Origin: Asterias amurensis
Lineage: Eukaryota; Echinodermata; Asteroidea; Forcipulatida; Asteriidae
Direction: 5' to 3'
DNA: 64,000 nucleotides
NCBI RefSeq assembly: GCF_032118995.1
Contig: NC_092650.1
Span: 18,905,501 to 18,969,500 of the forward strand
Below are positions 3,797 through 64,000 of this stretch, piece after piece. The position numbers and the translations under genes are program-made. Under the pieces are notes generated by a model. It ran no database searches. It saw only the letters and a program-made list of their open reading frames with translations, and was not told the origin of the DNA. The stretch's first letter is position 1; each line of letters begins with the position of its first letter.

Positions 3797-6030
3797 TTAA
3801 TATAGGAAAACAATTATGCCATCAACTGTGATAAAACTGAAGATTTTGTGAAGATACCGGGCTTTTTACACGAAGGCCTAACTGTCTTACAACTCAGCTT
3901 GGCCTGATGCCATTAGTAATTAATCTGCTTAGGTATTTATTAAAGAAATATGACTAGCACGTATAATAGTAAATGCATAATACAAGTAATTTGTTTATAT
4001 TGGTAAATAATAATTGAGGTTATAAGCTAATATCACCACAGACACATTTTAGGGCCTACACTTTTGATTTACGATGTTGATGTGATTTTTTTTATGAGCT
4101 TTTTTTTGTTAGGAGCTGTAAACATTTAAATGTATACGGCTACAATTGGCAGACAGATACTTTGGATCTCCAAGCTTGTTGAAGGCGGTTGCAAACCTGA
4201 GGTAAATAGCCCGTAAAATAAATTGTTTGACAACGCCCACAACATTTGAACTTCCACAAGAATGAGAGTACAAACACACAATGGACAAAATATTCACTAA
4301 CACAATAATACACAGAGGTTTAAATTTTGTAATTTGGCTAGTGGATGTCAAGTTTCTATGTTTTAAACGTGGACACTGAAGTAATTCTATTCTATTCTAT
4401 TAAAGTAATTATTTTAAATCGCAAATGTTGGTCACCAGGGCCAATGACATAAAGTGTGCCATCGCCCTCGAGTTGGGTTTATGGCCCGGCTGGTGCCACG
4501 ATAAAATTTGAATTCTTATAACGGACGCTCTACGAAATTCCCCGACAAATCCGTGGATATAAGCGAACGGAGAACGCAGATCATTTCCCGTTATACAAGA
4601 TCAACCAAATGAAGGGAAGATGTGATATCATATTACATTTCTAACATATTGAACAGGATCATGACTTTGTCGTTATGTATTGTGTAAACATGTTTTCATG
4701 CGGATAAAATATACATTGCGTGACAACTGACAACGTAAGGCCGGTAAACCTCCACCATTTTCGTGCATTAAAACATTGTGAGAAACAGCTCCCTCTGAAG
4801 TGACGTAGTTTTCAAGAAAGAAGTAATTTTCCACGAATTTGATTTCGATACCTCAAGTTTAGAATTTGAGGTCTCGAAATCAAGCATCAGAAAGCACACA
4901 ACTTCGTGTGACAAGGCTGTTTTGTCTTTCATTATTATCTCGCAAATTCGACGACCGTTTGAGCTCAAATTTTCACAGGTTTGTTATTTTATGCATATGT
5001 TGAGATACACAAACTGTGAAGGCTAGTCTTTGAAAATTACCAATAGTGTCCACTGTCTTTAATATAGGAAAACAATTATGTCATCAACTGTGATAAAACT
5101 GAAGATTTTGTGAAGATACCGGGTTTTTTACACGAAGGCCTAACTGTCTTACAACTCAGCTTGGCCTGATGCCATTAGTAATTAATCTGCTTAGGTATTT
5201 ATTAAAGAAATATGACTAGCACGTATAATAGTAAATGCATAATACAAGTAATTTGTTTATATTGGTAAATAATAATTGAGGTTATAAGCTAATATCAACA
5301 CAGACACATTTTAGGGCCTACACTTTGGTTTTACGATGTTGATGTGATTTTTTTTATGAGCTTTATTTTGTTAGGAGCTGTAAACGTTTAAATGTATACG
5401 GCTACAATTGGCAGACAGATACTTTGGATCTCCAAGCTTGTTGAAGGCGGTTGCAAACCTGAGGTAAATAGCCCGTAAAATAAATTGTTTGACAACGCCC
5501 ACAACATTTGAACTTCCACAAGAATGAGAGTACAAACACACAATGGACAAAATATTTACTAACACAATAATACACAGAGGTTTAAATTTTGTAATTTGGC
5601 CAGTGAATGTCAAGTTTCTATGTTTTTAACGTGGACAATGAAGTAATTCTATTCTATTCTATTAAAGTAATTATTTTAAATCGCAAATGTTGGTCACCAG
5701 GGCCAATGACATAAAGTGTGCCATCGCCCTCGAGTTGGGTTTATGGCCCGGCTGGTGCCACGATAAAATTTGAATTCTTATAACGGACGCTCTACGAAAT
5801 TCCCCGACAAATCCGTGGATATAAGCGAACGGAGAACGCAGATCATTTCCCGTTATACAAGATCAACCAAATGAAGGGAAGATGTGATATCATATTACAT
5901 TTCTAACATATTGAACAGGATCATGACTTTGTCGTTATGTATTGTGTAAACATGTTTTCATGCGGATAAAATATACATTGCGTGACAACTGACAACGTAA
6001 GGCCGGTAAACCGCCACCATTTTCGTGCAT
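3507..6030. repeat. 1,262-bp tandem duplication, two copies
   Basis: Copy 1 is 3507-4768 and copy 2 is 4769-6030. The offset of 1,262 bases is constant across the whole unit and only scattered single-base differences are visible (for example at 4031/5293 and 4345/5607), so the event is recent. The left edge falls inside a family 1 MITE and the right edge at a TTAA that also starts the next MITE. The unit encodes no recognisable protein. A collapsed or duplicated haplotype in the assembly is an alternative explanation. Confidence 0.9.
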
Positions 6031-47127: not shown

Positions 47128-48095
47128 CAACTTCATAGTTCTGCTTACTCATGGCTCTCTGCTTACTCATGGCTCCCTGCTTACTCATGGCGCTCTGCTT
47201 ACTCATGGCTCTGTGCTTACTCATGGCTCTCTGCTTACTCTAGCTCTCTGTTTAATGGCTCTCTGCTTACTCATGGCTCTCTGCTTACTGATCATGGCTC
47301 TCTGCTTACTCATGGCTCTCTGCTTACTCATGGTTCTCTGCTTACTCATGGCTCTCTGCTTACTCATGGCTCTCTGCTTACTCATTGCTCTCTGCTTACT
47401 CATGGCTCTCTGCTTACTCATGGCTCTGTGCTTACTCATGGCTCTCTGCTTACTCTAGCTCTCTGTTTAATGGCTCTCTGCTTACTCATGGCTCTCTGCT
47501 TACTGATCATGGCTCTCTGCTTACTCATGGCTCTCTGCTTACTCATGGTTCTCTGCTTACTCATGGCTCTCTGCTTACTCATGGCTCTCTGCTTACTCAT
47601 GGTTCTCTGCTTACTGATCATGGCTCTCTGCTTACTGATCATGGCTCTATGCTTAGTCATGGCTCCCTGCTTACTCATGGCGGTCTGCTTACTCATGGTT
47701 CTCTGCTTACTCATGGCTCTCTGCTTACTCATGGCTCTCTGCTTACTCATGGTTCTCTGCTTACTGATCATGGCTCTCTGCTTACTGATCATGGCTCTAT
47801 GCTTAGTCATGGCTCCCTGCTTACTCATGGCGCTCTGCTTACTCATGGCTCTCTGCTTACTCATGGCTCTCTGCTTACTGATCATGGCTCTCTGCTTACT
47901 CATGGCTCTCTGCTTACTCATGGTTCTCTGCTTTCTCATGGCTCTCTGCTTACTCATGGTTCTCTGCTTACTCATTGCTCTCTGCTTACTCATGGCTCTC
48001 TGCTTACTCATGGCTCTCTGCTTACTCATGGCTCTCTGCTTACTCATGGCTCTCTGCTTACTCATGGCTCTGCTTACTCATGGCTCTCTGCTTGC
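47128..48095. repeat. 18-bp minisatellite (GCTCTCTGCTTACTCATG)n with higher-order structure
   Basis: About 50 units of gctctctgcttactcatg. A 21-bp variant unit with 'ctgatcatg' recurs. Longer blocks repeat as a whole: the block with 'ctctagctctctgtttaatg' appears at about 47240 and 47455, and the block with 'gctctatgcttagtcatggc' at about 47643 and 47788. Because the unit is a multiple of three and has no stop in several frames, long frames exist on both strands (LLTHGS, LLMALC, SKQRAM repeats). There is no sign that any is translated. Confidence 0.95.
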
Positions 48096-48527: not shown

Positions 48528-49040
48528 TTGTCTTCGTTTGTTCGTTTGTTCGTTTGTTCGTTTGTCTGTTGTTCGTTTGTTCGTTTGTTCGTTTGTTCGT
48601 TTGTTCGTTTGTTCGTTTGTTCGTTTGTTCGTTTGTTCGTTTATTCGTTTGTTCGTTTGTTTGTTTGTTCGTTTGTTCGTTTGTTCGTTTGTCCGTTTGT
48701 CCGTTTGTCCGTTTGTCCGTTTGTTCGTTTGTTCGTGTGTTCGTTTGTTCGTTTGTTCGTTTGTTCGTTTGTTCGTTTGTTCGTTTGTTCGTTTGTTCGT
48801 TTGTTCGTTTGTTCGTTTGTTCGTTTATTCGTTTGTTCATTTGTCCGTTTGTTCGTTTGTTCGTTTGTTCGTTTGTTCGTGTGTTCGTGTGTTCGTTTGT
48901 TTGTTTGCTCGTTTGTTTGTTTGTTCTTTTGTTCGTTTGTTCCTTTGTTCCTTTGTTCCTTTGTTCATGTGTTCCTTTGTTCCTTTGTTCCTATGTTTCT
49001 TTGTTTATTTGTTCCTTTGTTCCTTTGTTTGTTTTCTAAG
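48528..49040 (+). repeat. (TTTGTTCG)n octamer microsatellite
   Basis: About 60 octamers with tttgtccg and tttgttcc variant blocks. All three plus frames are open (SFVRLFVC type peptides) because no phase of the octamer creates a stop. Not a gene. Confidence 0.95.
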
Positions 49041-49835: not shown

Positions 49836-50094
49836 CTTTTTTAAGGGAATTTCTGTGAGCTTGTTTTAGTCTTTGTTTTTAGTCTAGCTAGAGTTTGTTT
49901 GGTGTTGGATCTTATTTGAAAATTGTTTAAATTCATCACATTAACTAATTTGTTACTGCTTTAAGACCTTTTTATCCTATGTTTGTTTACTCTAAAATAT
50001 TGTTGTAAAGTTTGCCTTGATTTTGTATGAAAAATAAAACTCAATGAAGATACAAACTGTTTAATTTGTGAACCTTTGCTTTAATGTTCGAGTC

Positions 50095-51060
50095 TGGAAT
50101 GGATGGGAACACACTTGTTGGGGGTGGGGGGGCACTTCTGGCTAATTAGGTATGTCATGTGACATCTCATGTGACATCTCCTTAATAGGGGGGTTCACTG
50201 TTGCCTAATTAGGTGTCATGTGACATATCTTTAATGGGGGGGGGAAAGCTGGCGATTCTGCAATAGCGGGGCAGGGGGTGCACTTCTCCTTCATAATTAG
50301 GTATGTCATGTGACACTTTCTTAATTGTGGGGGGGGGGTGCACTTCTGGCTAATTAGGTATGTCATGTGACATTTCTTTAATGGGGGCGGGGGGCCGGAA
50401 GGTGGGGGGGGGGGCTTTGGGGTTGCACTTCGGCCTATAATTAGGTGTCATTTGACATTTCCTTCACAGGGGGGGGGGGGGGTGTGCACTTCTGGCTAGT
50501 GACACTTTATTAATAGCCGGGGGTGGGGGGGGGGGGGCAGGGGTGCACTTCTTGCTAATTAGGTATGTCATGTAATTCCTTCCCAGGTCAAAATTCCATT
50601 TGAACCTAGTTAACTGGGGTCAACTGGTTCAACTGGACAGTGATCAAACTCTTTATAGAGGGGGGTGCACTTCTGTCTGTGACAATGTCTGTGACATTTC
50701 TTTTTTAGGGTGTTTTTTCTTTCATTATTATCTCGCAACTTTGATGACTGATTGAGCTCAAGTTTTCACATGTTAGTTATTTTATGCAAATGTTGTGATA
50801 CACCAACTGTGAAGGCTAGTCTTAGACAATTACCAATGGTGTCCACTGCCTTTAATAGGGGGGCTTGGGGGGCCGGGGTGCACTTCTCGCTAATTTTAGG
50901 TATGTCATGTGACTTTTCCTTAATGGGGGGGTGCACTTTTGGCTTAATTAGGTACGCACGGTAAATTCCTTAATAGCGGTGGGAGGGGTCTGCACTAATC
51001 TACCTAATTAGGTTGTCACGTGGGCCTTTTGATTTATGGGGGGGGGGGGGGCGTAAAACT
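50095..51060 (+). repeat. G-rich minisatellite, units of ~60-110 bases
   Basis: Each unit has a run of 6-14 G, then 'tgcacttctggctaattagg', then 'tatgtcatgtgacat' and 'ttccttaat'. At least eight units with variable G-run length are seen. A family 1 MITE fragment (50709-50851) is inserted in the array. Such G-runs can form G-quadruplexes. Confidence 0.85.
50709..50851 (+). mobile_element. MITE, family 1, right-end fragment in G-rich array
   Basis: Begins inside the family core ('tttctttcattattatctcg') and ends ccactgcct before TTAA (50852-50855). The left end is replaced by G-rich repeat, so the array probably recombined through it. Confidence 0.8.
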
Positions 51061-51701
51061 GCATACCAGCACAAAACTGCACTGACACTACATGTTTACT
51101 ATAGTAAGCTAAACTAAGCTGCACTGAAGTACACACTACACTGCTCTAAACTAAACTACGCCACACTACACACCAAACATTAATTTAAATTGAATTAAAT
51201 TGAATAAAATGATGTCAATTCAAGTCACATTAAAGTTTAATTTCATGCAGTTGTCACAATATTTCTAACTCTGTTTAACTACACTGCACTAATCTAAACT
51301 AAATTAAAATAAATAAATTACACTGCACTGATGAATATCAGCACACAAAATAAACAAATCTAACCTATAATTAAAAAAAAAAAGTTTTTCTTTCTTGAAT
51401 TCTCGCCTCTTGAGGGCGCTGTTTTGCAGCCACTTTCTGACCACTTTTGTTTTTCCCACTGTGAACACATAACCAATACAAAGAACACCTTTGCTATAAC
51501 TTGGTGATTTTATATTGACCCTATATATACAGACTTTGGGCACAAGTAGATACATCTTCACTTACTATATATTTCCATTTACAGTAATAATTTTGGTGTT
51601 TGGATGATCAAAAGAACTTAAGAAGTGTTTTTTTAGTTCTCTAACTTCTCTAAATAGAGTAAAAGAACTAAAAAACTAAGCTACAAAAGTGACTGACGTT
51701 A
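51061..51701. other. No gene recognised; degenerate 'actaaactgcact' repeat
   Basis: 51041-51330 is built of loose 'ctgcact', 'taaactaa' and 'acactaca' words. An 85-codon minus frame at 51304-51561 has no domain. Confidence 0.4.
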
Positions 51702-51914
51702 ATGGACCGTTCCGGCTTTCCACTAAGCTCCGCCCACCGCGCACGTGAGCAAGACACGTGTACGAACACTCCCAATGACATTCTGCACGATTCTGCCACG
51801 CGTGCCAAATATACGCGCACGCATGACCGAGTTTGTCCGACCACAATCATTGCTGTGATTGGTCAAATGGGTGAACGCGCACAGTTTGATTGATAGGCCG
51901 GATCGGTCCATAAT
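51702..51914. mobile_element. Short terminal-inverted-repeat element
   Basis: Left end atggaccgttccggc and right end gccggatcggtccat are inverse with one mismatch. The 213-base interior is much richer in CG than its surroundings. Several open frames cross it but none has a domain. Confidence 0.6.
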
Positions 51915-52579
51915 GAAGTGCACATGTTTTTTTGCAGCATCTATTTCGTGATAATTTGTTCATAGAGTTATACATTACTTGACAGAGATAGAGCCACAAT
52001 AGCAACAATACTATCACTAATGTGTCAATATTATAGGAACCACAGGGTCAGAAGATGTTAGGGAAGTTTCAACTTTACAAAATTACAAACTTTACAAACT
52101 CTAGCCCAGTCATGGGGGTTCCCGTGAAAGAAATATTGATTTTACTACCGTAAGTGTGTATGCATACAAACATAAGTTAAAATAGAGGCGAAAAAGGAAA
52201 TTTTTAGTTTATACAAATTATGCATATTTCCCCTGCTTACTGGTTTCCACTTTTTGGATATGTTGTTTTGGAGGGTTTGAGTAGACTATTGCAAAAACAA
52301 TATTTCTGTTGCAGTTTTGTCTAGGTCAAAGCACAGATTGGCTAAACTATTGCTAAAACAGATGTTTTACCATAGCTAGCCAAGCACCAGGATAATAAAT
52401 AGTTGTTTTGGTAATCAAAAGAATTGCAAGGGTCATGGGTTTGATTCCCGCCCAAGTTAAGTTTTTGTTCAATATTTTCAAACTTAATTTATCACCATGA
52501 CCAAATCTGAATACTATGCAACAATGATGTCTTGTATTTCATGATTTTCCAAGTGAGGTCATTCACAATAACCCCTCCC
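51915..52579. other. No gene recognised
   Basis: A B-box-like 'gggtttgattccc' near 52437 hints at a SINE fragment. Nothing else is seen. Confidence 0.35.
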
Positions 52580-52583
52580 TTAA

Positions 52584-52911
52584 AAGGCAGTGGACACTAT
52601 CGGTAATTACTCAAATAATTATTAGCATAAACCTTACTTTGTAACAGGTAACGGAGAGCTGATGATAGTATAAACCATTGCAAGAAGCAGCTCCCTTTGA
52701 AGCATCGTAGTTTTTGAGAAAGAAGTAATTTCTCTCTAAAATATTTGAATTTGATTTTGAGACCTCAGATTTAAATTTTAAGTCTCAAAATCTGCATCTG
52801 AATGCACACAACTTGTACAACTTCAATGACCAATTGAGCTCAAACTTTCACGGGTTGTAATTTTACGGTGAAGACTGAACTTTGACAATTACCAACAGTG
52901 TCCATGTGTCT
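52584..52911 (+). mobile_element. MITE, family 1, diverged
   Basis: TTAA at 52580-52583 and 52912-52915; left end aggcagtggacactatcgg; right end weaker (tgtccatgtgtct). It lies about 90 bases upstream of the PHD/OTU remnant. Confidence 0.75.
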
Positions 52912-52999
52912 TTAAAAGTTAAAAACCCCCAGAGAGTCTTGTTTTGTTTGAACGTTATTTTAATTAATGTACAATTGTTTTGTTTTATTTGATTTTCAG

Positions 53000-53612
53000 G
53001 ACTCCAGTTTTCATGGCTGCTATATGCCTTCAGAGCCAGAGAGTACGAGGCAGCAAGTGGCCTTGTGGGGTGCGGGTAAGGAGTGCCGATCCAATGTCAT
53101 CCAGTGTGCAACCTGCCTCTCATGGTTTCATTGCCGCTGTGAGCAACTGACACTGAGCAACTATAGGTTAACGTGACCCTCGACTACACATGTCGTGGGT
53201 GCATGATGTCTATTGCATCCATTTCACCATGAACTTTCTCTTCGATAACTTGAAGTATGCAGTTTTAAAGAACTTAATGCTGAGCACTGTTAACCGTGAG
53301 ACCATCCTTATGCGTGATGCTCTAAACATCACTGGCATGGCCTCAAAGGTGACCATGCAACCTGGCATGACCCGTGATGTCATATCCCTTCGCCTCCTGC
53401 AGTCAACTGGCGGCCTAAAAGATCGAACTCCGGTGACTGCATCTGGGAACAGGAACTGCCTATTCAACTCTCTCTCGACAGCACTAGTAGGAGATGAATC
53501 GCTGAATATGGAGCTTCGTCCTTATTGGAGTGGTAAAGTAGCAACACACAAGTTCAACGCTGTGCGCAGTAAACAATGTCACCTACGTTGCATGCGCACA
53601 ATGCTACATTAG
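53000..53612 (+). pseudogene. PHD-finger/OTU-like gene remnant
   Basis: A good splice acceptor (ttttatttgattttcag) ends at 52999. From 53000 the frame reads a PHD-like zinc finger: GKEC, then CATC and the FHCRC His-Cys pair at about residues 31-46. It meets a stop at 53174; the last CRGC pair continues in another frame at about 53197-53208. From 53190 a third frame gives about 140 codons ending in an OTU-like segment: GNRNCLFNSLSTALVGDESL, then MELR. OTU enzymes are cysteine proteases that remove ubiquitin; the usual active-site DGNC stretch reads GNRNC here, with the Asp not in place. The N-terminal PHD plus OTU order matches an uncharacterised, vertnin-like protein family I associate with marine invertebrates. 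Three frames in 600 bases and the altered active site mark it as broken. The remainder of the OTU domain is missing. Confidence 0.65.
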
Positions 53613-54256
53613 AAACTGTAAATTTTGAGCTTTTGACTAAATTTTGAAGCAAAGAAATCGGCCTTTCCTGTGATGAATTATGACATTTGTTAGGTTTTGC
53701 TGATCGGGAAAATTATGAAATATGTGGTATTGTTTGTTTATCATGAAAAGAATATCGGTACCGGTCTCCGGACGTTGAGAAGGAATTGAGATTGTTTGCA
53801 ACCGCTTTTCCTAGCGGGGATATGCATTTGAACAGTAGACACAATTAGACACAAACTGAAAAAGGGGAATATAAAATGACATTTTTCTTTTTTTTTCTTT
53901 TATACAGTTTCGCTTAGGATATTTTTGGTTAAGAGAGAGGTAATTATTCAACTGATTTTGTTTTTGTTTAATAAGAATACTATAAAGAGGTAATTCCTAT
54001 TGCAATTTTGTTTGCCAAAATCTTTGAAATGTCGTTATTCATAGCTAACATCATCATCCTTGCCGTATGTCGTTGGTTGAGAAGGACGCTTGAACGCAAT
54101 GCAATCTAATATAATAATAATAATAATAATAATAAGACTTGTAATGCGCACATGTCCACCCTGCTGAGTGTATTTTTCTGTCGCGTAACTGTGTAGCTAG
54201 TTCTTAATACTTTGCTCGTGAAATGAAATGTCAGTTATTAGTATTAATATTATAAG
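53613..54256. other. No gene recognised; (AAT)n microsatellite
   Basis: (taa)n run at about 54108-54134. Nothing else is supported. Confidence 0.5.
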
Positions 54257-54394
54257 TTATCACATAAGCGCGAGTTGAATACGGAAAAATATAGCCCTTC
54301 TGCGTCCCATATCCAACGAGGCTGAAGGCTGAGTTGGATATGGGACGCAGATGCGCTATATTTTCCGTATTTCCATGAGCGCGCGTGTGATAAC
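54257..54394. mobile_element. Fold-back hairpin
   Basis: 'ttatcacataagcgcgag' pairs with 'gcgcgcgtgtgataac', and 'tgcgtcccatatccaac' pairs exactly with 'gttggatatgggacgca' in the middle. Almost the full 138 bases can fold. Confidence 0.75.
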
Positions 54395-54398
54395 GTAT

Positions 54399-54533
54399 TT
54401 ATCTTCAAGCAAACTTGGCGCGTGACATAGAACACACAATACGCATGGTATTTATATTAGCCGTGCAATATAGGTTTTTATCACCACTCCATTCTGCCAA
54501 TCTGATTGGAGGATTAGTGCGTACTTGAAGATA
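54399..54533. mobile_element. TATCTTCAAG-ended element
   Basis: Left end tatcttcaagcaaactt, right end gtacttgaagata. The interior 'atcaccactccattctgcca' and 'atctgattggaggattagtg' recur inverted at 59.2-59.3 kb. It ends about 50 bases before the O-mannosyltransferase exon. Confidence 0.6.
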
Positions 54534-54586
54534 ATATACATGTAGTGGATTGCCTATAACCATATAAATTTATCTTTGGTCTGCAG

Positions 54587-54741
54587 ATTTGATGAGTTCC
54601 ACTTCGGCAAATTCATCAATATGTATCTCAAGCAAGTGTTCTTCTTTGACATCCATCCACCACTTGGCAAGTTATTGCTTGCAGGAGCTGGCTACATGGC
54701 TGATACCAATGTCACGTTTCCCTTTGAGAGGAGTGGGGATG
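54587..54741 (+). pseudogene. Protein O-mannosyltransferase (PMT/POMT) single exon
   Basis: Encodes about 51 residues starting FDEFHFGKF and including FFFDIHPPLGK. PMT enzymes are multi-membrane ER proteins that add mannose from dolichol-phosphate-mannose to Ser/Thr. The Asp-Glu of FDE sits in the first luminal loop and is catalytic in this family; HPPLGK follows it. The HPPLGK form is closer to POMT2 than to POMT1. A splice acceptor (ctttggtctgcag) precedes the exon and a donor (g/gtaaga) follows at 54742; the phases are 2 in and 1 out. The exon itself has no stop. No other PMT exon is visible anywhere in the window, although a full gene needs about 15-20 of them, so this is either an isolated duplicated exon or part of a gene with very long introns reaching beyond the window. 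Confidence 0.75.
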
Positions 54742-54887
54742 GTAAGAGAATCATGTTGTTAAGGGTGCGTTTTAATTACCCAAACCAGAAGCATTTTGAG
54801 CTTTGGTCATTGGTTGAGTGCTTTTTTGTGCGTTTGATTGAACCACGGTAACATTGACGAGGCTGGTCCGACCGAACAGTAACCGAC
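54742..54887. other. Intron-like sequence after the PMT exon
   Basis: The open frame continues for about 35 codons past the donor, but that part has no similarity to the family. Confidence 0.4.
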
Positions 54888-55186
54888 GTAAAAGTAACTA
54901 TAAATATAAATATGAATAGTAAACTTGCGGGTACAACCATGAGTAAAATCTCTTTTGAAGGAGTGGTGGCTCTGAAAAGAGCCGGTTTGGTCTTCCTTGG
55001 CGTTTCGCACAGTATACTTCTGCTCGTCTTTCTCCTGAAGACGCTCGTCTTTCTCCTGAAGACGAGCAGAGTATACTGTTCAAATTATCAAGACCAAACA
55101 AGCTCTTTTCAGAGCCACCACTCCTTCGATAGAGATTTTACTCAGCCCTGCAGGGCTATTCATATTTATATTTATAGTAACTCTTA
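54888..55186. mobile_element. Fold-back element with duplicated centre
   Basis: The arms 'agtaactataaatataaata' and its inverse lie at the ends; inner arms include 'aggagtggtggctctgaaaa' and its inverse. At the centre 'ctcgtctttctcctgaagac' occurs twice in tandem. A frame of 129 codons (54912-55301) only reads through the hairpin. A fragment of the same family is at 56.77-56.83 kb. Confidence 0.8.
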
Positions 55187-55660
55187 TTCTCCACACCATG
55201 CAAAGCTTCAACAAACACCACACAGTACCCAACTTGTTGGCTCGGTTAGGCTTAGTTTCAAGATGGGTGACTCTAAAAACATTTTCAATTTAATTCCTTA
55301 AAAAAAATGGAATACCCTGAATCATAACAAGTAAATAATAATTGAAAAATCACAAAGACTAATTTCCATTAGTTGAATAAAAACAACGTATATTTTAAGA
55401 ACATGAACTTTTTAGAGATGTTGCTACAAAACAACCTACATGTTCAGCCAAAGTACAGTACAAGTACATGTATATGAACATGTATGCACTGCAAAATTGC
55501 ATATCCAAATTTGTTACAAATATATTTTTTTAAGTGGTTTCCAAATTGTTCACTTGTTATATTTATGACATGAGGCTGTATCTGAATTAGAGGGCTATAG
55601 CCATGCTCATGACTATTTTACACCTTACCTGATGAACTTTTCATTCCACAAAGTTTTCCT
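55187..55660. other. No gene recognised
   Basis: AT-rich spacer; nothing is supported. Confidence 0.4.
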
Positions 55661-55665
55661 GTTGA

Positions 55666-56031
55666 AGGTACATGTTTCCTTGGATCGGGCGAGTTAGTTG
55701 GTCTATGAAAAAGCCTTTGAAACCGTTTGTTATAGAATGCATATTGTGAGAAAGATACCTTTAAAAGTAGAATATAATGACCCACACAAACATGCCTCAA
55801 AATTGCATGGTTTTCCTTTTACTTGGCATGCTTGGTTAACTAACATGGCATGCCATTTTGTACAGTAAAATTTTTACTCCACTAAATGGCTGACCATTTT
55901 AGTTCAGTAAGTAAAAGACAGATCACAACCAGGCAATGTTGAGGCATACTTGTGTGGATCATTGTATGTTACTTTAAAAACATCTTTTTTTAACAAAATG
56001 GTTACAACATTTTTTTCATAGACCAACTCAC
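55666..56031. mobile_element. Long fold-back element, decayed copy of the 11.1-kb family
   Basis: 'ccttggatcgggcgagttag' on the left and 'catagaccaactcac' on the right. The centre has 'ggcatgccattttgt' and 'actaaatggctgacc'. The right terminus is lost where the next element begins. Confidence 0.65.
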
Positions 56032-56033
56032 CA

Positions 56034-56297
56034 GGGCCCAATTTCATTGCGCTGCTTGACGGTAAGCAAATTTTCGTGCTTACTGTAGCAGAAAAATTGC
56101 TAAGGTGCAATTGTATTTCACAGGTTAGCAGAAGCATTTGATGTCCATTTTGCGTGTTTACCATTGATTTACATTGTGACGTCATATATTTTCATGCTGT
56201 AAACACCGGAAGGTTAGCATGCCTTTTCGTGTGCTATGAAATGGAAATGACGCAGTAAGCACAAAATAATGTAAGCATGCGCTATGAAATTGGGCCC
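56034..56297. mobile_element. GGGCCC-ended inverted-repeat element
   Basis: Left end gggcccaatttcattgcgct, right end gcgctatgaaattgggccc. Abuts the preceding fold-back element directly, so one probably inserted in the other. Confidence 0.75.
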
Positions 56298-57299
56298 TGA
56301 TTCAGTGCAACAAGTCTCTTTAATAGCCAACTTTCAAATGCGGGCTAAGATGACCCTTTGAATTGTCCCAGAAACTGCCACAAAGGGTATGTTATTGTCA
56401 ACTTGTCATTGTGAACTACTATCTAAAGACAACAGTATGTCAAGGGAAAGAAACAGTAGTCTACGTACTGTATCAACATTTTGTTTTAGAAATTGTTATT
56501 TAAAAAAATTTCCAGTTTCATTGAAACTGTCCAACCTTACTTTTCATTACGATGTATTAGCCGGCTGGAATAAAAGTCGCAGAGTTTGTTGAAAGCTTTA
56601 ATGGTCCAAAACAACAGTATTACCGTTTTTTATTTCTTTCATTGTCTTTAGAATTGAATTGATGTTGTGCAATTGGACAACATTTAATTAACTATTGTTT
56701 GAATTTTTGCATGATGTGGATAAATTTGAAGATGAACTTAAGGGTACACCCGTGTGCAAATCTTTTTAGTGGGAGTGTTGGCTCTGAACAGAGCCATTGT
56801 ACTCTGTTCGTCTTCAGGAGATTGCAAGACTACCAGTGGTGATGGAGCTTGTGAGTTGGTTGCTGGCTGGATGTGCAGGTAACCTTATTCCGGTAAGCAT
56901 AACTTTGCTTGGCTTAGCTATTTTGTTGTGTTTTTAAAAACAGTGCTATGAAATTGGTGCTGGTCCAAAGACAACAGTTAAATGTAGTTTTATAAGACAT
57001 GAAGGTTTGCATGGTGGAATGATAATTAGAAATATTTTTGCGGTGACATGTAGATAAATCTCTTTTGATAAAAACGCCTTTTGCACATTTTAGAGCGAAA
57101 TTTGATAAAGACGCATAAACTCTTTCCCTGATGGCGGGAAGAGTATAGAGTCCAACTGTTGAGTCCTCCCGTTCCTCTCACAACCACCATCAATCAAAAG
57201 TGATTTCTTTAGATCATCGCAAATATGTTTCATAGTTAAATGCATTGATGTTATTATGTTTCAATGTTAATGTTGGTGTTTTCTCCCTGGTTTCTTCAG
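56298..57299. other. No gene recognised; intron-like
   Basis: Holds a fold-back fragment at about 56765-56830 (see the 54.9-kb element). No exon upstream of the MYCBP2 piece, such as the RING exon, is visible. The last ~15 bases form the acceptor (tccctggtttcttcag). Confidence 0.4.
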
Positions 57300-57407
57300 G
57301 CTTATTACGGAGGTGAAGCTCGCTGCGATCAAGAGGTTGGGATACAGGGTGACTATGACCCAACTGAGTTAGTGTGTGGAGCATGCTCAGATGTATCCAG
57401 GGCTCAG
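57300..57407 (+). pseudogene. MYCBP2 (PAM/Highwire/RPM-1) relay-domain exon 1
   Basis: Encodes 36 residues, AYYGGEARCD... to ...CGACSDVSRAQ, almost identical to the vertebrate MYCBP2 tandem-cysteine domain as I know it. MYCBP2 is a very large neuronal E3 ubiquitin ligase that passes ubiquitin between two cysteines and esterifies it onto Thr/Ser. The Cys of EARCD corresponds to the upstream relay cysteine (human C4520). Acceptor ttcttcag at 57299 and donor cag/gtaggg at 57408; both phases are 0, matching the next MYCBP2 exon at 60.1 kb. This exon alone is intact. It is labelled a pseudogene fragment because its partner exon is frame-broken and no other MYCBP2 exon is seen. Confidence 0.85.
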
Positions 57408-57857
57408 GTAGGGGGTTTTACGCCAAAGTTTTATTTCTTGTTTTAATGTACTGTTTAACCCTGGGAGACCAACACTGCTTTTTGTAATGGTGCCCAGTGA
57501 GACAATGCATTAAGCACAGACCCGAATAAGGGGGCAATTCCTCCCCCCACATACAAATACAAAGACAGCTATATTGAGCCAAAAGCATTATAAAGAACAA
57601 AGGATCGAAATAACTGTTGAGATAATTGTGGAATTACTGATTACATAGTTTACCGTTTTATGGATTATTTATTTGAGTAATAATTTGATCATATGGACAC
57701 ATTTATTGTTCATTCATTTATGAAAGTCAACCACCCCAAAACAAGGTCACAATAGCATCCTCAAGCGTCCTCTTTCCCAATCAGAAAACTGTGTGGGCTT
57801 ACAGTCTCTTGTATTTGTTTTACAACTAGTTTTACGGTCGGCAAATAGAAGAGTTAA
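57408..57857. other. Intron-like sequence, no feature
   Basis: Begins at the donor of the MYCBP2 exon. No gene or repeat is supported before the TTAA-ended fragment at 57858. Confidence 0.4.
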
Positions 57858-57970
57858 AGGATTTGATAATGATAGTGGAGAGCTTCCCTTCAAATATTAC
57901 ATGTTCTTACGGAGGTGCTGTAGTTTTTGAGAAATGAGTAAAACAATGTCGTGAAAATACGTTTGCATGG
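57858..57970 (+). mobile_element. TTAA-ended MITE, family 3, left fragment
   Basis: Follows TTAA (57854-57857) with AGGATTTGATAATGATAGTGG. Shares, in inverse orientation, 'ctgtagtttttgagaaatgagtaaaacaatgtc' with 59.78 kb. Confidence 0.5.
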
Positions 57971-58873
57971 TGGTCTTCCTGGTTTTTTTTTTTTCCACAG
58001 GGCTCACAAACAATGACATACATCACATACCGGTGCAGGGTTTTAACAAAAATGACATTGTTTGTTTTTCCATCTTGCTTTTTGGTTGGATCAGTCCGTT
58101 AAAACTTAGTCCCGGAGATGGGTATTTTTTGTTTTTGTAATGAAAATATCATTTAGCATACCATGTACATGTTCAATGCTATGTATTGTGGTTGGGTTGT
58201 TTTGTAGATCGTTAGGTGAAAGCAATTTTTTTAATTGCTAAGTAATAGTTCCGAGGATGCACACATTTCCAATACACCAGTACACAGAATTTAACTATTG
58301 ACCTGTCAAGTCTGCTTCATTCCACTTGGTTTTCCATGAGAATTCATTGATAAAATTAGTGTCTAAACCATCAATCTAAAACAAGAGTGATAAAACTTAA
58401 AAATATTATTAGTGCAAGTAGAAGTATGACGGTATCACTTCTGCAACCCATATTCTTTAAGGGGTTTATAGATATTGAACACAACTACGCATGATATAGA
58501 TGTCCAATCTTTGCTTGCAAGTTCTCCTCATTGAATAAGTTAAAGGGGGGGCCGAGGACTGTCATTTTAATTATAGCATGTTTGTGGGTGTACATGGAAT
58601 TGAGAAATCTAGCACAGACTTTTGGGTCATGAGGGTTAGAGGTTGTTAGGGTTAAACATAGAGGACCTGCTATGTATAAAAAATTTGCCTTTGGTATGAT
58701 TGCAAAAACACTGCAGTTATTTGTCTTACACTGGCTTGCTTTTTTAGTCAATTTTGCCTTATTATTCCACTGGTGTTGAACATTAAGGTCAAATGTGCTT
58801 GATAAAGTTATGAATAATGTTCATGTCATGATTTAAAACAGTGTTACATATATTTAAATTCTTTTTTTACCAG
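57971..58873. other. Intron-like sequence, no feature
   Basis: A minus-strand open frame at 58485-58751 has no recognisable domain. Nothing else is supported until the splice acceptor (ttttttaccag) at 58873. Confidence 0.4.
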
Positions 58874-59011
58874 TCTCAACGAGTTTCCCGCCAGTGCCCA
58901 TTATGCCCTTAAGACACTTTGGTCAAGTACTTTGCACAGCGTTTGAGGCGCAAGCATAAAGTTGCTGATCAACAAAGACGGCTAACCATAATTGCACAGA
59001 CACGAAAAAAG
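58874..59011 (+). pseudogene. Zinc-finger-like exon with in-frame stop
   Basis: Flanked by an acceptor (tttttttaccag) and a strong donor (aaaaaag/gtaagt); exactly 46 codons, phase 0 in and out. It reads SQRVSRQCPLCP, a TAA stop at 58910-58912, then DTLVKYFAQRLRRKHKVAD and a basic tail. CPLC followed by LRRKH resembles a C2H2-type finger in which the first His is lost. I associate similar paired fingers with uncharacterised, possibly transposon-related proteins of marine invertebrates. The single stop in an otherwise clean exon suggests recent inactivation. It lies within what would be the intron between the two MYCBP2 exons. Confidence 0.45.
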
Positions 59012-59154
59012 GTAAGTTTATGGCTTGGCAGGAGAACTTTGTGCTTTCCCATTATGATACTGTCCATTGCCTTTTTGTTATCTTGTGTCACATTACCTCC
59101 ATATCACTTAAAGATAATTTTATTTTTATTCTTTAGGCCTTTAAATGTTTCCTT

Positions 59155-59363
59155 TTATCTTCAAGCAAACTTTGATTCACGGTTCTGATTGGTCAACCCA
59201 TAGCAAAAAGATGAGCGATACAAATTAACCTTTATCTTCAAGTGCGCACTAATCCTCCAATCAGATTTGCAGAATGGAGTGGTGATAAACAAAATATTTG
59301 CACGGCTAATATCACTACCTGTTTCTTGTTCTGTCAAAAGCACCAAGTTTGCTTGAAGATAAA
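59155..59363. mobile_element. TATCTTCAAG-ended element, second copy
   Basis: Left end tatcttcaagcaaactt and right end aagtttgcttgaagata are perfect inverse copies. The interior shares, inverted, the 'actaatcctccaatcagat' and 'tgcagaatggagtggtgat' segments of the 54.4-kb element. Confidence 0.75.
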
Positions 59364-59500
59364 TATGTTATCAAACATTTAAGACATACTTAAAACCCAA
59401 GTTCTTCAATGTTTTCTTAGTTTCATTGCTTTATGTTGCAAACCAGTTTACTTACAAAATTGTAAATATAAATTTTTTAAACAATCTAAAATACTTTCAG

Positions 59501-59630
59501 ACAACCAATCTCCAAACCACGTGCAGCTGGGAACAAAAAGTGTTACCAAAGGGAAACTGCGGACTGCCCAGTACCAGATTGTTACGGCAAAGCGTACAAA
59601 CAAATCGACACACACTTGGACGAGTTGGAT
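59501..59630 (+). pseudogene. Zinc-finger-like exon 2
   Basis: The acceptor atactttcag ends at 59500 and the donor gat/gtgagt begins at 59631. One frame of 43 codons reads CPVPDCYGKAYKQIDTHLDE in its second half, a C-x4-C...H finger typical of poorly characterised multi-finger proteins in marine invertebrates. It probably belongs with the finger exon at 58.9 kb, but the phases do not match: the first exon ends in phase 0, this one needs phase 2. Direct splicing would therefore read it in the wrong, still open, frame. An intervening exon may be missing, or the pair is dead. Confidence 0.45.
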
Positions 59631-59719
59631 GTGAGTTCAAAACCTGATAAAATTCAAGTTATGTACCTTGCATGTCTGCTGGCACCGAGAATTTCATTAT
59701 AGTCTCCCATTGTCCACAC

Positions 59720-59940
59720 TGTCACGTGGAGAGGGCTCCGTGGTTGGAAAAGATTAAAATAATTTTTGTCTCATAAGACAAAAATTATTTTCATGACATT
59801 GTTTTACTCATTTCCCAAAAACTACAGCACCTCAGCACGTAACATTTTCAGGGAAGCTTATCATTATCTGCAAACTGTGTAAGTTTAGTGTAAATCTGTG
59901 GACATTGTTTTTTTTTTCCTACAAATGTTACATAGACCCT
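59720..59940 (-). mobile_element. TTAA-ended MITE, family 3, right part
   Basis: Ends ...catagaccct before TTAA (59941-59944). It contains 'gacattgttttactcatttc' and 'aaaactacagcacctcagca', the inverse of 57.9 kb, and an internal hairpin 'aaaataatttttgtctcata'. Confidence 0.6.
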
Positions 59941-60081
59941 TTAATACAACATTTAGGGAATTTCACCTCACAAGATATGAACAATTTTGATTAAAACATT
60001 TTGCAAACAATGGGTTTTTTAACAAACCAAATTCCTCCAAACTCCAACGCTCCATCTTTTCTCTAATTTAATTGACCCCAG

Positions 60082-60234
60082 ATGTGTCCAAAGCATGGGA
60101 CAGATTTCCTGGAGTACAAGTGCCGCTACTGCTGTTCAGTTGCTTTGGTCGAACACATCTCTGCAATGCTTGCCACGATGACTTTCAAAGGATCACCAGC
60201 ATTCCAAAGCCAGATCTTCCTCACTGCCCGGCTG
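60082..60234 (+). pseudogene. MYCBP2 relay-domain exon 2, frameshifted
   Basis: Follows acceptor ...gacccca/g at 60081 and ends at donor gctg/gtaaga. It begins in phase 0 with [20 protein letters not shown], continuing exactly from the 57.3-kb exon. After CCSV the frame changes: the rest of the domain, [17 protein letters not shown] and [13 protein letters not shown], is encoded in another frame. Compared with vertebrate MYCBP2, the codons for the residues between CCSV and CFG (Ala-Val-Phe-Phe) are missing and 13 bases appear deleted, with 'gc' on both sides as microhomology. The Cys of CFG is the downstream relay cysteine (human C4572), so the break falls directly before it. With 13 bases restored the exon length would give the phase-1 end expected from the family. 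The final C-terminal exon is not seen downstream. Confidence 0.85.
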
Positions 60235-60307
60235 GTAAGAGTGTACTGGGGTTGGATAGGGAAGGATAGGGGGTGGAACATGGGTGATAGTTGAAGTGTT
60301 GGTCGTT

Positions 60308-60525
60308 CCAACCCTTCAACTATGGATCGATAGAGAATTAAGCCTGGTTCATACTTTCTGTGAATGCAAAGCGTTTTTGACGTCTCATCTCTGTTTTTGC
60401 ACCCAATGTTTCGCACAAGTTTCGCACAATTCGACTGTTGCGATTTATTTGTTGCGATTTTGTGACGTCAAAATTCATATCACATTCGCAGGAAATATAA
60501 ACCAGGCTTCATATTTGAAGGGTTG
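60308..60525. mobile_element. Nested inverted-repeat element
   Basis: Inner ends 'agcctggttcatactttctg' and its inverse (60340-60509). Outer arms 'ccaacccttcaa' (60308-60319) and 'ttgaagggttgg' (60514-60525) enclose it. It begins 70 bases after the MYCBP2 donor. Frames across it have no domain. Confidence 0.65.
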
Positions 60526-60748
60526 GAGTGGATGGATTGATAGGGTTTGAGTTGGACTGAAGATGGTTGGGAAAATTCCATGGTTAATAAAATTATATGC
60601 ACTGCATGTATCTGAAATCTGATTGCCTTGTGATATACCGACATGTCAGCTCAAAGACTTTATCTATCAAAAAAAAGTTATATGTGAGTATTTCACTTCA
60701 AATGTCCTGGATGTTTGCCCAAATCTAAGGTGCTTAGGTTTTGCACAG
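60526..60748. other. No gene recognised
   Basis: Spacer between the inverted-repeat element and the 180-bp array. Confidence 0.4.
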
Positions 60749-61080
60749 CGCCTCACGCATGCGAGATTTTTGACTAAAAGTCCAACTTCACAAAGTTCTC
60801 AATAAATCTCAAATTATTTCTCATATACCTTTTCCACAGAGATAAAATGTGTTCAGTATTCCGTTCTGTATCATTTGAAAACTTCATCCCTGTGCGTTGG
60901 AGAAATGTAATTGTACCAACATTTAAGACAATCTGTATTATCAAAGAATTTTGACTAAAAATTCAACTTCACAAAGTTCTCAATAAATCTCAAATTATTT
61001 CTCATATACCCTTTCCACAGAGATAAAATGTGTTCAGTATTCCGTTCTGTATCATTTGAAAACTTCATCCCTGTGCCACT
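60749..61080 (+). repeat. 180-bp tandem repeat, two units
   Basis: 'ttttgactaaaa' followed by 'tcaacttcacaaagttctca' and 'cacagagataaaatgtgttc' occurs near 60769 and again 180 bases later, nearly identical. The same unit, more diverged, makes up 62.25-62.48 and 63.4-64.0 kb. Confidence 0.85.
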
Positions 61081-61721
61081 GATGGGTGCACTCTGGGTGG
61101 TTTCACTGGGTGCTTCTCAAAAGTTTGTCTGTCTTCATGCCTACCGACTTCCCTTGATCTCATCAGCGAGTCAACCTTTAAGAGACAAACACTCTCTCAA
61201 TTTCACTGGAAACATTTTCAGCGTTGGAGAATTTGGTCAGCCAACTCTCAACAGCAGGCAATTTTTCAGCATTTTTGTGTTGGAGATTTTGGTAAAGTGT
61301 TAGCCCACCCTCTCACCCATCAAAATGGTTCACAACAATAACATTTAGAGTACTCGTGAAACTGTGAACTGAAAAGTGAAATTAAATTGGTACAAGAAGT
61401 ATTGTGTACTAGATACAGGCTTGAAATACTAGCACCGCACACTTTGGACTGTAACACTTGAAATGTAATTGTACCAACATTTAAGACAATCTGTATTATT
61501 AAAATCTTCACACATTGAACTCACTTTGAGATATCGAAGCTACTTCCTGATTGCATTATTGAAATAAACAGGATATAATTCATCCTTTAAAAAGATTATT
61601 TGATCTTTCTTAATAAAATCATTGGTTTTTAAATAAAGCTTAATCAGAAATCAGTGTAAGAATTTATTCTGAACTGTTTTAATAACACTGTGTTAGGTCA
61701 TTTTCCCTCCAAACTGCAGGT
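61081..61721. other. No gene recognised
   Basis: Includes a second copy, at about 61458-61503, of 'tgtaattgtaccaacattta' (first at 60905). An acceptor-like tract (ccctccaaactgcag) ends at 61720. No gene is supported. Confidence 0.4.
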
Positions 61722-62090
61722 GAAAGCTGAGACAGGACAGTTGCCACCTCTACACCCTACGCCTCTTCTTCCCGCCCTGCAATCTTTCCTGCACCATTCC
61801 ACTTGTACTACTTGCTGCTCTCCATATAGTCCAAGAGTCACCGCGCCTCTGATGATGCATACGTGCTGCTCTCCATATAGTCCAAGAGTGTCTGCGCCTC
61901 TGATGATGCATACTTGCTGCTCTCCATATAGTCCAAGAGTCACTGCGCCTCTGATGATGCATACGTGCTGCTCTCCATATAGTCCAAGAGTCACCGCGCC
62001 TCTGATGATGCATACGTGCTGCTCTCCATATAGTCCAAGAGTCACTGCGCCTCTGATGATGATGCATACGTCGTATAGCCTTAAGGTAAT
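61722..62090 (+). repeat. 51-bp minisatellite after an acceptor-like site; open frame of 17-residue repeats
   Basis: The unit tgctgctctccatatagtcc... to ...gatgatgcatac is repeated about five times from 61811 (51 bases = 17 codons, CCSPYSPRVTAPLMMHT). It follows about 90 bases coding for a Pro/Leu-rich stretch after a candidate acceptor at 61720. The frame stays open for 138 codons, and the minus strand is also open, so openness alone is weak evidence. I do not recognise the leading stretch. It could be an exon of another captured gene in which a minisatellite has expanded. Confidence 0.8.
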
Positions 62091-62250
62091 CCATGCTTAC
62101 TGTTAGCTTTCTCTGCTAGTAATCTTGATTATATATGCACATGTAATAACTCTTTTTCCCCATAAAAAGCAGAAGTCTTTGCAAATACTTTCAACAATGG
62201 CAACCAATGGGACAACACTTGGTTGATTTTGTCGTCCAATATTTAACTGG
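62091..62250. other. No gene recognised
   Basis: Short spacer. Confidence 0.4.
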
Positions 62251-62480
62251 AACCTACTATAGAGGAAGTTTAATTGAGAACTTCACAAAAATCCAAATAT
62301 ATCTTGAACTTTTACTCACTAACCCAGTCAGCACTGATAACATGTCTTCAGTAGTCTGTTCTGTGTCGTTTGAAACCATAAAATCACCGAAAATTGTCTG
62401 ACCCCAAATCTGAACATTGTCTCATGCCAGCATGGCAGATTTTTCAGATTTTTTACTAAAAACTCAACATCGACAAATTC
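62251..62480 (+). repeat. ~190-bp repeat, one diverged unit
   Basis: Contains 'cttcagtagtctgttctgtg', 'gtttgaaaccataaaatcac' and 'ccagcatggcagatttttc', in the same order as the end-of-window array. Confidence 0.75.
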
Positions 62481-63394
62481 TCAAAGCCGGGTTATCCCAA
62501 ATACCAAAAATCAAAACTAAAGAAAACTGTTCCTCCAAGCACACCACAAAATTACAAATAAACACTGGCTTTTGAATCGATGCGTTTTATGCTAAACTTA
62601 TTTATTTACAATTGAATATTTACACTTGGACCAATTAAACAAAGGAAAATAAAGTACGAATAAATTATTAAATTATGATGTCTCAAATCAGTTCAACAAT
62701 AATCTTTCAAAGTCTCGACGACTACTGCGTCCATAAATTACTCTTCTGTCTTCCACCGCCCACTGCCTGCAATATAAATTCGTTTCAAGTTTACATCACC
62801 AATCCTTCTTGTCATTAGGCTCCGGGAGTCTTTCCCCTTCAGCCGGGTGTTCCGGGTTAGCGACGTGTCTCCCCACGCACCCACCTCCACGGTACCCTCT
62901 CAAGGCCGAAGTATCGTAATCTCTACTCCATACTGGGAGCCCCGAAATATTACCCACAATACTTATAAATAAAACGGGTTCGGCTGAGCTACATAATTTC
63001 ACTTTACAATACAAGAAATAATTCAGATCGGCCGCCCATCAAACAAACTTGCCGGCAGATTTATACTGAACATCAATTTACACTTGGTTTGCAATAATCG
63101 ACACTCTTACAAAGTTTCCCTTCTTCCAGCTTTTGTCTCAAAAACAGCCATACAACATTCTTTACACAAAGGAAATAGTACAAAACTATCATAATTAAAT
63201 TAAGTTACAGTTTTGGCGAGATTACTTAAAACTGGCTCCCCTCAATTCTGTAAAATATGCAAGAAATAACTTACGAAAGGAACCCCGTTAATACTTCCAT
63301 ATATGGTCAATGACGTAGGGCAACGCCCCAAATTTACGTTTTAGCTACGTGTTATGTACTTAACCAAATAATACCATAAACTACAGAGCCCTCT
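62481..63394. other. Unrelated ~0.9-kb segment interrupting the array
   Basis: GC-rich in the middle (62800-62960) and unlike the flanking repeat. A 72-codon minus-strand frame at 62796-63014 shows no domain. It replaces roughly 60 bases of a repeat unit and may be an inserted element, but no terminal repeats were found. Confidence 0.4.
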
Positions 63395-64000
63395 TGTGAC
63401 AGTAGTCCTTTCTGTATCATTTGAAACCATAAACTCACCCAAAGTGTTTTGTAATGCCGGCATCACTGTTTTTTCTGATTAATCTAAAAAAAATTGAGTA
63501 GTCCAAACTCACAAATTTCTCAATAAATCTGAATATTTTGGTTGCATACCCAGTCTCAACTGATAAAATGTCTTCAGTGGTCTGTTCTGTATCATTGGGA
63601 ACCATAAGACCAAAGGCAATTTGTTGACCCCAAATCTGAAATTTTGACCATACCCGCATGGTCGATTTTTTTCATTTTGGACAAAAAACCCAAACTTACA
63701 AAATTCTCTAAAAATCTCAAACTTTTGCTCGTTTACCCATCCCACACAGATAAATTGTGTTCAGTAGTCCTTTCTGTATCATTTGAAATCATAAAATCAC
63801 CCAAAATTTGTTGACCCGAAATCTAAAAATTTTGTGATGCCGGCATCAACGGTTTTTTTTAATTTTGGCCCAGAAACCCAAACTTACAAAATTCTCAACA
63901 AATCTCAAACTTTTGCTCGTTTATTCAATCACACAGATAAATTGTGTTCAGTTGTCCTATCTGTATCATTTGAAACCGTAAAATCACCTAAAATTTGTTG
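63395..64000 (+). repeat. ~190-bp tandem repeat array, running off the window end
   Basis: Units near 63402, 63580, 63772 and 63961 share 'ctgtatcatttgaaaccata', 'aaatttgttgacccc.aatct', 'atgccggcat' and 'acttacaaaattctcaa'. The spacing is about 180-192 bases. Minus-strand frames here are repeat artefacts. Confidence 0.85.

Follow-up and report, generated by a model that had tools for sequence, protein, structure and literature searches.

Pieces of PMT and MYCBP2 genes in a probable satellite-associated mosaic duplication of Asterias amurensis

The closest described counterparts of the locus analyzed here are the mosaic duplications near primate centromeres, the animal Pack-TIR elements (TIR, terminal inverted repeat) and gene capture by Helitrons, whose ends carry 5' TC and 3' CTRR and whose insertion leaves no target-site duplication. 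For the CHEK2 duplicon of primates, the largest copy is reported to hold CHEK2 exons 12-16 and TTC28 exon 1, and a two-step mode of seeding and swapping was proposed in which a seeding step is followed by swaps of larger cassettes (PMC2566985). Here we analyzed a window of 64,000 nucleotides from Asterias amurensis (C3:18905501-18969500, C3 being the contig that holds it in a 491.5-Mb, 23-contig genome). Between 52999 and 60240 it contains a PHD/OTU-like piece, one exon of the protein O-mannosyltransferase (PMT) family, two MYCBP2 exons (MYC_A and MYC_B) and two "zinc-finger" pieces (ZF1 and ZF2), all on the + strand and surrounded by inverted and dispersed repeats. Among the paper titles listed in literature searches, none deals with this locus. 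Our analysis indicates that the block is probably decaying gene material in a satellite-associated mosaic segmental duplication that includes a single Pack-TIR-like insertion. Further copies of the block on C3 are named c2 to c5, C4 denotes a second chromosome with related copies, and L numbers denote fetched loci elsewhere (L042-L045 on C4).

The architecture appears much like that of the mosaic duplications near primate centromeres. As in the primate duplicons, whose gene pieces were copied to pericentromeric regions and later carried between chromosomes in larger cassettes (PMC2566985), intron-containing gene pieces were copied and spread. In contrast to them, the C3 unit is repeated in direct orientation with satellite behind it, and its centromeric position is putative. 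The insertion carrying ZF1 and ZF2 is, like the animal Pack-TIR elements, of TIR type with exon-like sequence; compared with them it measures 2083 bp and has a TTAA target, and its cargo capture is putative, while the main text of the source contains neither the word piggyBac nor TTAA (PMC8277862). Mixed exon pieces on one strand also recall Helitron gene capture, unlike the TTAA duplication at the one clean insertion, the large satellite-associated units and the edges tested, which lack Helitron-type ends. What the locus offers is an invertebrate genome with a primate-pericentromere-like architecture, in which intron-containing gene scraps occur on two chromosomes and are multiplied beside satellite arrays; a position near the centromere, if real, would make the locus suited to asking whether mosaics of this kind arise alike across animals.

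The features that carry this reading are as follows (window positions).

About 54541 to 60679, + strand: PMT-MYCBP2 segment common to C3 and C4, broken by the 57858-59940 insertion (gapped BLAST, 84-88% over most of it)
54586 to 54743, + strand: PMT exon (Pfam PF02366, E=8.4e-14)
57299 to 57409, + strand: MYCBP2 exon A, MYC_A (PDB 6t7f residues 132-169, E=6.8e-14)
57858 to 59940, no strand assigned: insertion of 2083 bp, set between two TTAA within the MYCBP2 intron (empty C4 sites; inverted arms)
58874 to 59013, + strand: ZF1, exon-like with an in-frame stop
59500 to 59634, + strand: ZF2, exon-like (present in the window, c4 and c5, and partially in c3)
60081 to 60237, + strand: MYCBP2 exon B, MYC_B (PDB 6t7f from residue 168, E=9.8e-11)

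A preliminary description, made from the letters of the window, had named one PMT exon and two MYCBP2 exons, and the matches listed above bear both names out. For the PMT exon and MYC_A, the first base given is the G of the AG and the last two are the GT. Our Pfam scan covered the + strand, in three frames at 20001-49999 and in two of three frames at 50001-64000; the latter region yielded PMT as a Pfam family and nothing else. When one frame each of L042 and L043 was compared with PDB, one gave no match and the other, with the C4 counterpart of the PMT exon, matched PMT structures (best E=1.4e-8). The end of MYC_A (...SRAQ) meets the start of MYC_B (MCPKHG...), the two cover residues 132-169 and then 168-226 of 6t7f in c5, and their borders are both phase 0. 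By sequence, MYC_A and MYC_B are adjacent exons of MYCBP2; as neighbours in one protein they therefore count as one piece, and with an intron between them and matching splice sites this gene piece is intron-containing and unprocessed. AG/GT splice-like borders flank the PMT exon, MYC_A, MYC_B, ZF1 and ZF2, and the PHD/OTU-like piece has an acceptor only, in agreement with the earlier statement of plausible splice sites on at least one side. The idea of six unrelated captures does not survive, as MYC_A and MYC_B are adjacent and PMT and MYCBP2 lie on one duplicated segment, which leaves three or four independent pieces. With so few, the common + strand of all pieces, correctly described before, is weak evidence (chance 1 in 4 to 1 in 8).

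Searching the genome with MYC_A DNA returned near-identical copies exclusively, at least 12 matches of 98-100%, three of them on C3 (window, c2 and c5) and nine on C4, where they fall in three clusters. MYC_A of c2 is identical to that of the window, and c5 has one difference. Since c3 and c4 retain other parts of the segment, the PMT-MYCBP2 segment occupies at least 14 places. In three of three C4 sites, one per cluster, the PMT exon lies at the identical left edge (window 54541); the right edge is marked by a stretch of A close to 60679. Outside the left edge there is a MITE-like (miniature inverted-repeat transposable element) repeat on C3 and different sequence on C4, and outside the right edge there are satellite-related monomers on C3, none of which continue on C4. 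Spread between chromosomes is established for the PMT-MYCBP2 segment only (9 of the 12 MYC_A matches are on C4). L042 carries part of window 55373-55765 a second time, at 4582-4958, ahead of its PMT exon. Together with five copies of the block on C3, each with its own deletions, the MYC_A copies on two chromosomes support repeated segmental duplication, one of the origins the preliminary description had offered.

The ZF1 and ZF2 pieces sit between the two MYCBP2 exons, as had been noted, and both lie within the 2083-bp insertion in the MYCBP2 intron. In each of the seven C4 copies fetched the site is empty, window 57857 being followed directly by 59941 with one TTAA where they meet. The insertion has inverted arms of 53 nt at 92% (57912-57964 and 59781-59833); its termini are short and similar, and a gap-rich stretch separates them from the inner arms. 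Because of the TTAA duplication and the inverted arms, the insertion is of TIR type and not a Helitron. Some part of it is present in all five C3 copies. In c2 positions 58231-59783, inside the insertion, are absent; c2 yet retains both insertion flanks, and since both sides of 58231-59783 are kept, this gap is a deletion and not an empty site. The best reading is a Pack-TIR-like element whose cargo is putative host-gene sequence, so that Pack-type capture, as proposed earlier, fits this insertion alone and not the rest of the block. If the element was inserted and not excised, the filled and empty sites would place the arrival of a cargo-bearing TIR element between the separation of C3 and C4 and the amplification on C3. 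The two "zinc-finger" exons of the preliminary description keep their AG/GT borders; their name, which comes from a sequence motif, found no zinc-finger Pfam match in the scanned window open reading frames or in three frames of c5. ZF1 occurs in the window, c4 and c5, each time with an in-frame TAA. The scanned window open reading frames gave a single weak DUF3267 match below its cut-off.

The segment and its insertion lie in a larger unit on C3, the features of which are given below.

19588 to 63257, + strand: larger duplicated unit (collinear with C3:19009840-19056636, 81-98%, with gaps)
52999 to 53520, + strand: PHD/OTU-like gene piece, truncated, degenerate and frameshifted (weak PHD match; C3 copies)
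60766 to 63257, + strand: unit end, with degenerate satellite monomers at 60766-61061 and 62279-62485 and a 51-bp tandem repeat at 61809-62061
63400 to 64000, + strand: first part of an array of 187-bp satellite, 33 kb long and reaching C3:19001947

The larger unit spans about 44 kb where mapped (two copies), and the OTU piece marks five C3 copies. A DNA search of the genome with this piece found, besides the window, four further copies on C3 at 92-98% identity; the five lie at 18958490 (window), 19045770, 19247654, 19338355 and 19407822, all on the + strand and spanning 449 kb. A block of more than 1 kb in several copies with at least 90% identity, which defines a segmental duplication, is thus found in the five C3 copies, and two C3 units adjoin large satellite arrays. 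Measured on C3:18905501-19160000, 254.5 kb assembled with no N, the 187-bp satellite extends for 33 kb after the first unit (C3:18968900-19001947) and for at least 102.9 kb after the second (C3:19057114-19159998), with every match on one and the same strand; the fetched c3 and c4 stretches likewise enter it. Some stretches of the satellite show a 374-bp period, up to 98%.

Different pieces are missing from different copies. Deletions remove 53521-57606 and 58399-59246 from c3 and 55777-58533 and 59934-60193 from c4, so that both are without MYC_A and c3 is also without the PMT exon. Pairwise identity of the C3 copies is 95.2-99.0% in every compared sub-block, without clear nesting; the one exception is c4 in 62100-63257 (75-76%), where what aligns is probably satellite. 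Between the window and the second C3 unit, identity rises from 81-95% over the part before about 50 kb to 93.7-98.0% over the part that starts at 50.6 kb, nearer the satellite. Conversion or different ages may account for this rise.

Of the PHD/OTU assignment, a PHD match stands below the Pfam cut-off (E=3.3e-4, 21.1 bits versus 24); OTU, a name that comes from a sequence motif, was matched by Pfam neither in the window piece nor in the three frames scanned of c2, where the piece is longer. In c2 about 1.9 kb of extra sequence follows the point where the window piece stops, and the truncation is common to the window and c5. The piece was not found in the 5.4 kb left of one C4 PMT-MYCBP2 segment.

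Taken together, these data suggest the following course. A genomic segment that held a single PMT exon and the neighbouring MYC_A and MYC_B, introns included, would have become a duplicon on two chromosomes. In the lineage of the C3 copies, a TIR element specific for TTAA and bearing the "zinc-finger" pieces would have entered the MYCBP2 intron. The duplicon lies inside a larger unit with the broken PHD/OTU piece, dispersed repeats and, behind them, the 187-bp satellite. This unit would have been amplified in direct orientation, for which unequal exchange or replication-based copying is the most likely mechanism, and different pieces would have been lost from each copy.

Capture of all gene pieces in series by Helitron or Pack-type transposons, the other origin that had been put forward, would agree with the ZF pieces lying within a TTAA-flanked insertion with inverted arms, and with a left segment edge that adjoins a MITE-like repeat on C3 and other sequence on C4. 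However, the PMT-MYCBP2 segment has introns, its edges shared by C3 and C4 show by eye neither 5' TC nor 3' CTRR, and what was multiplied is a unit of about 44 kb with satellite behind it; we consider serial capture of the whole block unlikely. That the pieces are exons of separate ordinary genes with long introns, or that the block is an assembly join of unrelated contigs, is highly improbable. Single exons with plausible splice sites are what ordinary genes would present, but the identical junctions are seen again in other copies, several of which have broken frames. An assembly join was rejected on the recurrent junctions and on the 254.5 kb without a run of N.

The mosaic duplication reading does face contrary observations, of which some would favor a multi-copy chimeric gene, in which at least some copies use the PMT and MYCBP2 exons for a protein or a non-coding RNA. 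The PMT exon of c2 and c5 has one base fewer and ends in phase 0, so one open frame would run through PMT, MYC_A and MYC_B if they were spliced. MYC_B is open in c2, c5 and five of the seven C4 copies. When the window was compared with one C4 copy, the retained flank had 203 substitutions in 2983 positions (6.8%), a count that omits the poorly aligned 54450-54749, 55450-55549, 56050-56349 and everything beyond 60640 and uses windows picked after seeing the alignment; without that omission, 2188 of 2452 aligned bases are the same in the largest flank (54743-57299). Against this flank MYC_A had no differences in 109 (P=0.0005), MYC_B had 5 in 155 (P=0.04) and the three exons pooled had 14 in 420 (P=0.0015). 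The exons may thus be under constraint or yield a product. In this one comparison, the MYCBP2 exons may have changed little because they spent time in a working gene until they were copied, or through later constraint or conversion. The satellite also matched none of the seven C4 loci examined, and the parent MYCBP2, PMT, OTU and ZF loci were not found in genome DNA searches made with the OTU piece and MYC_A only. TTAA is the target of piggyBac-type elements, which can excise without trace, so the empty C4 site could result from excision. Finally, some C3 copies may be misplaced alleles, as they differ by just 1-5%, which may approach allelic differences in such animals; the copy-specific deletions speak against this.

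Nevertheless, a chimeric gene seems an improbable account of the block. With its end in phase 1, the PMT exon of the window, c4, L042 and L045 has no in-frame junction with MYC_A, and L044 has a PMT exon with a broken frame. Exon shuffling, as first suggested, may have taken place: the PMT/MYC_A phases mismatch in the window, c4 and the two open C4 copies checked, yet they match in c2 and c5. MYC_B of the window carries a frameshifting 13-bp deletion relative to c2 and c5, which are full length; a different deletion, of 14 bp, lies at nearly the same spot in c3, and MYC_B is also broken in two of the seven C4 copies. The PMT exon, with 9 differences in 156, is conserved no better than the flank (P=0.38), and no upstream partner exon was seen, the Pfam scan of the + strand at 20001-49999 having found no family at E of 0.1 or below. 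Broken frames in other copies, which include ZF1 in three of three, and the exons missing from c3 and c4 argue against a general function, and the block is probably no working gene. It is quite unlikely that the duplicon is a new gene, with PMT and MYCBP2 exons in its places on two chromosomes spliced in some copies into a chimeric product or an RNA acting on the working MYCBP2; were this true, such a product or MYCBP2-directed RNA would explain why MYC_A changes less than the introns. The one-base difference at the PMT exon end was read in c2 from C3:19044000 on and in c5 from C3:19406322 on.

The repeats between the PHD/OTU-like piece and the PMT-MYCBP2 segment are listed below.

53522 to 54225, + strand: remains of an approximately 1-kb dispersed repeat bounded by short inverted repeats (genome DNA matches)
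54252 to 54398, no strand assigned: fold-back inverted repeat (arms 54252-54317 and 54333-54398, 77% complementary)
54398 to 54537, no strand assigned: MITE-like repeat adjoining the PMT-MYCBP2 segment on its left (limits by eye)

With these inverted and dispersed repeats around the pieces, the earlier statement that they are embedded in fold-back and MITE-type elements holds. Of the 40 scored matches in the genome search that found the OTU copies, 35, on many contigs, cover just the start of 53522-54225, and copies of about 1 kb with 31-bp inverted ends were found in L006-L008. Positions 53522-53620 were considered as a last OTU exon and rejected, as they sit in this dispersed repeat. The MITE-like repeat has an inverted second copy at 59232-59376. 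Elsewhere in the window, a 299-bp unit is repeated 2.3 times at no less than 97% identity (259-931), an 18-bp unit forms a tandem array of about 52 copies (47140-48093), and the 8-bp unit TTCGTTTG forms another of about 63 copies (48533-49034).

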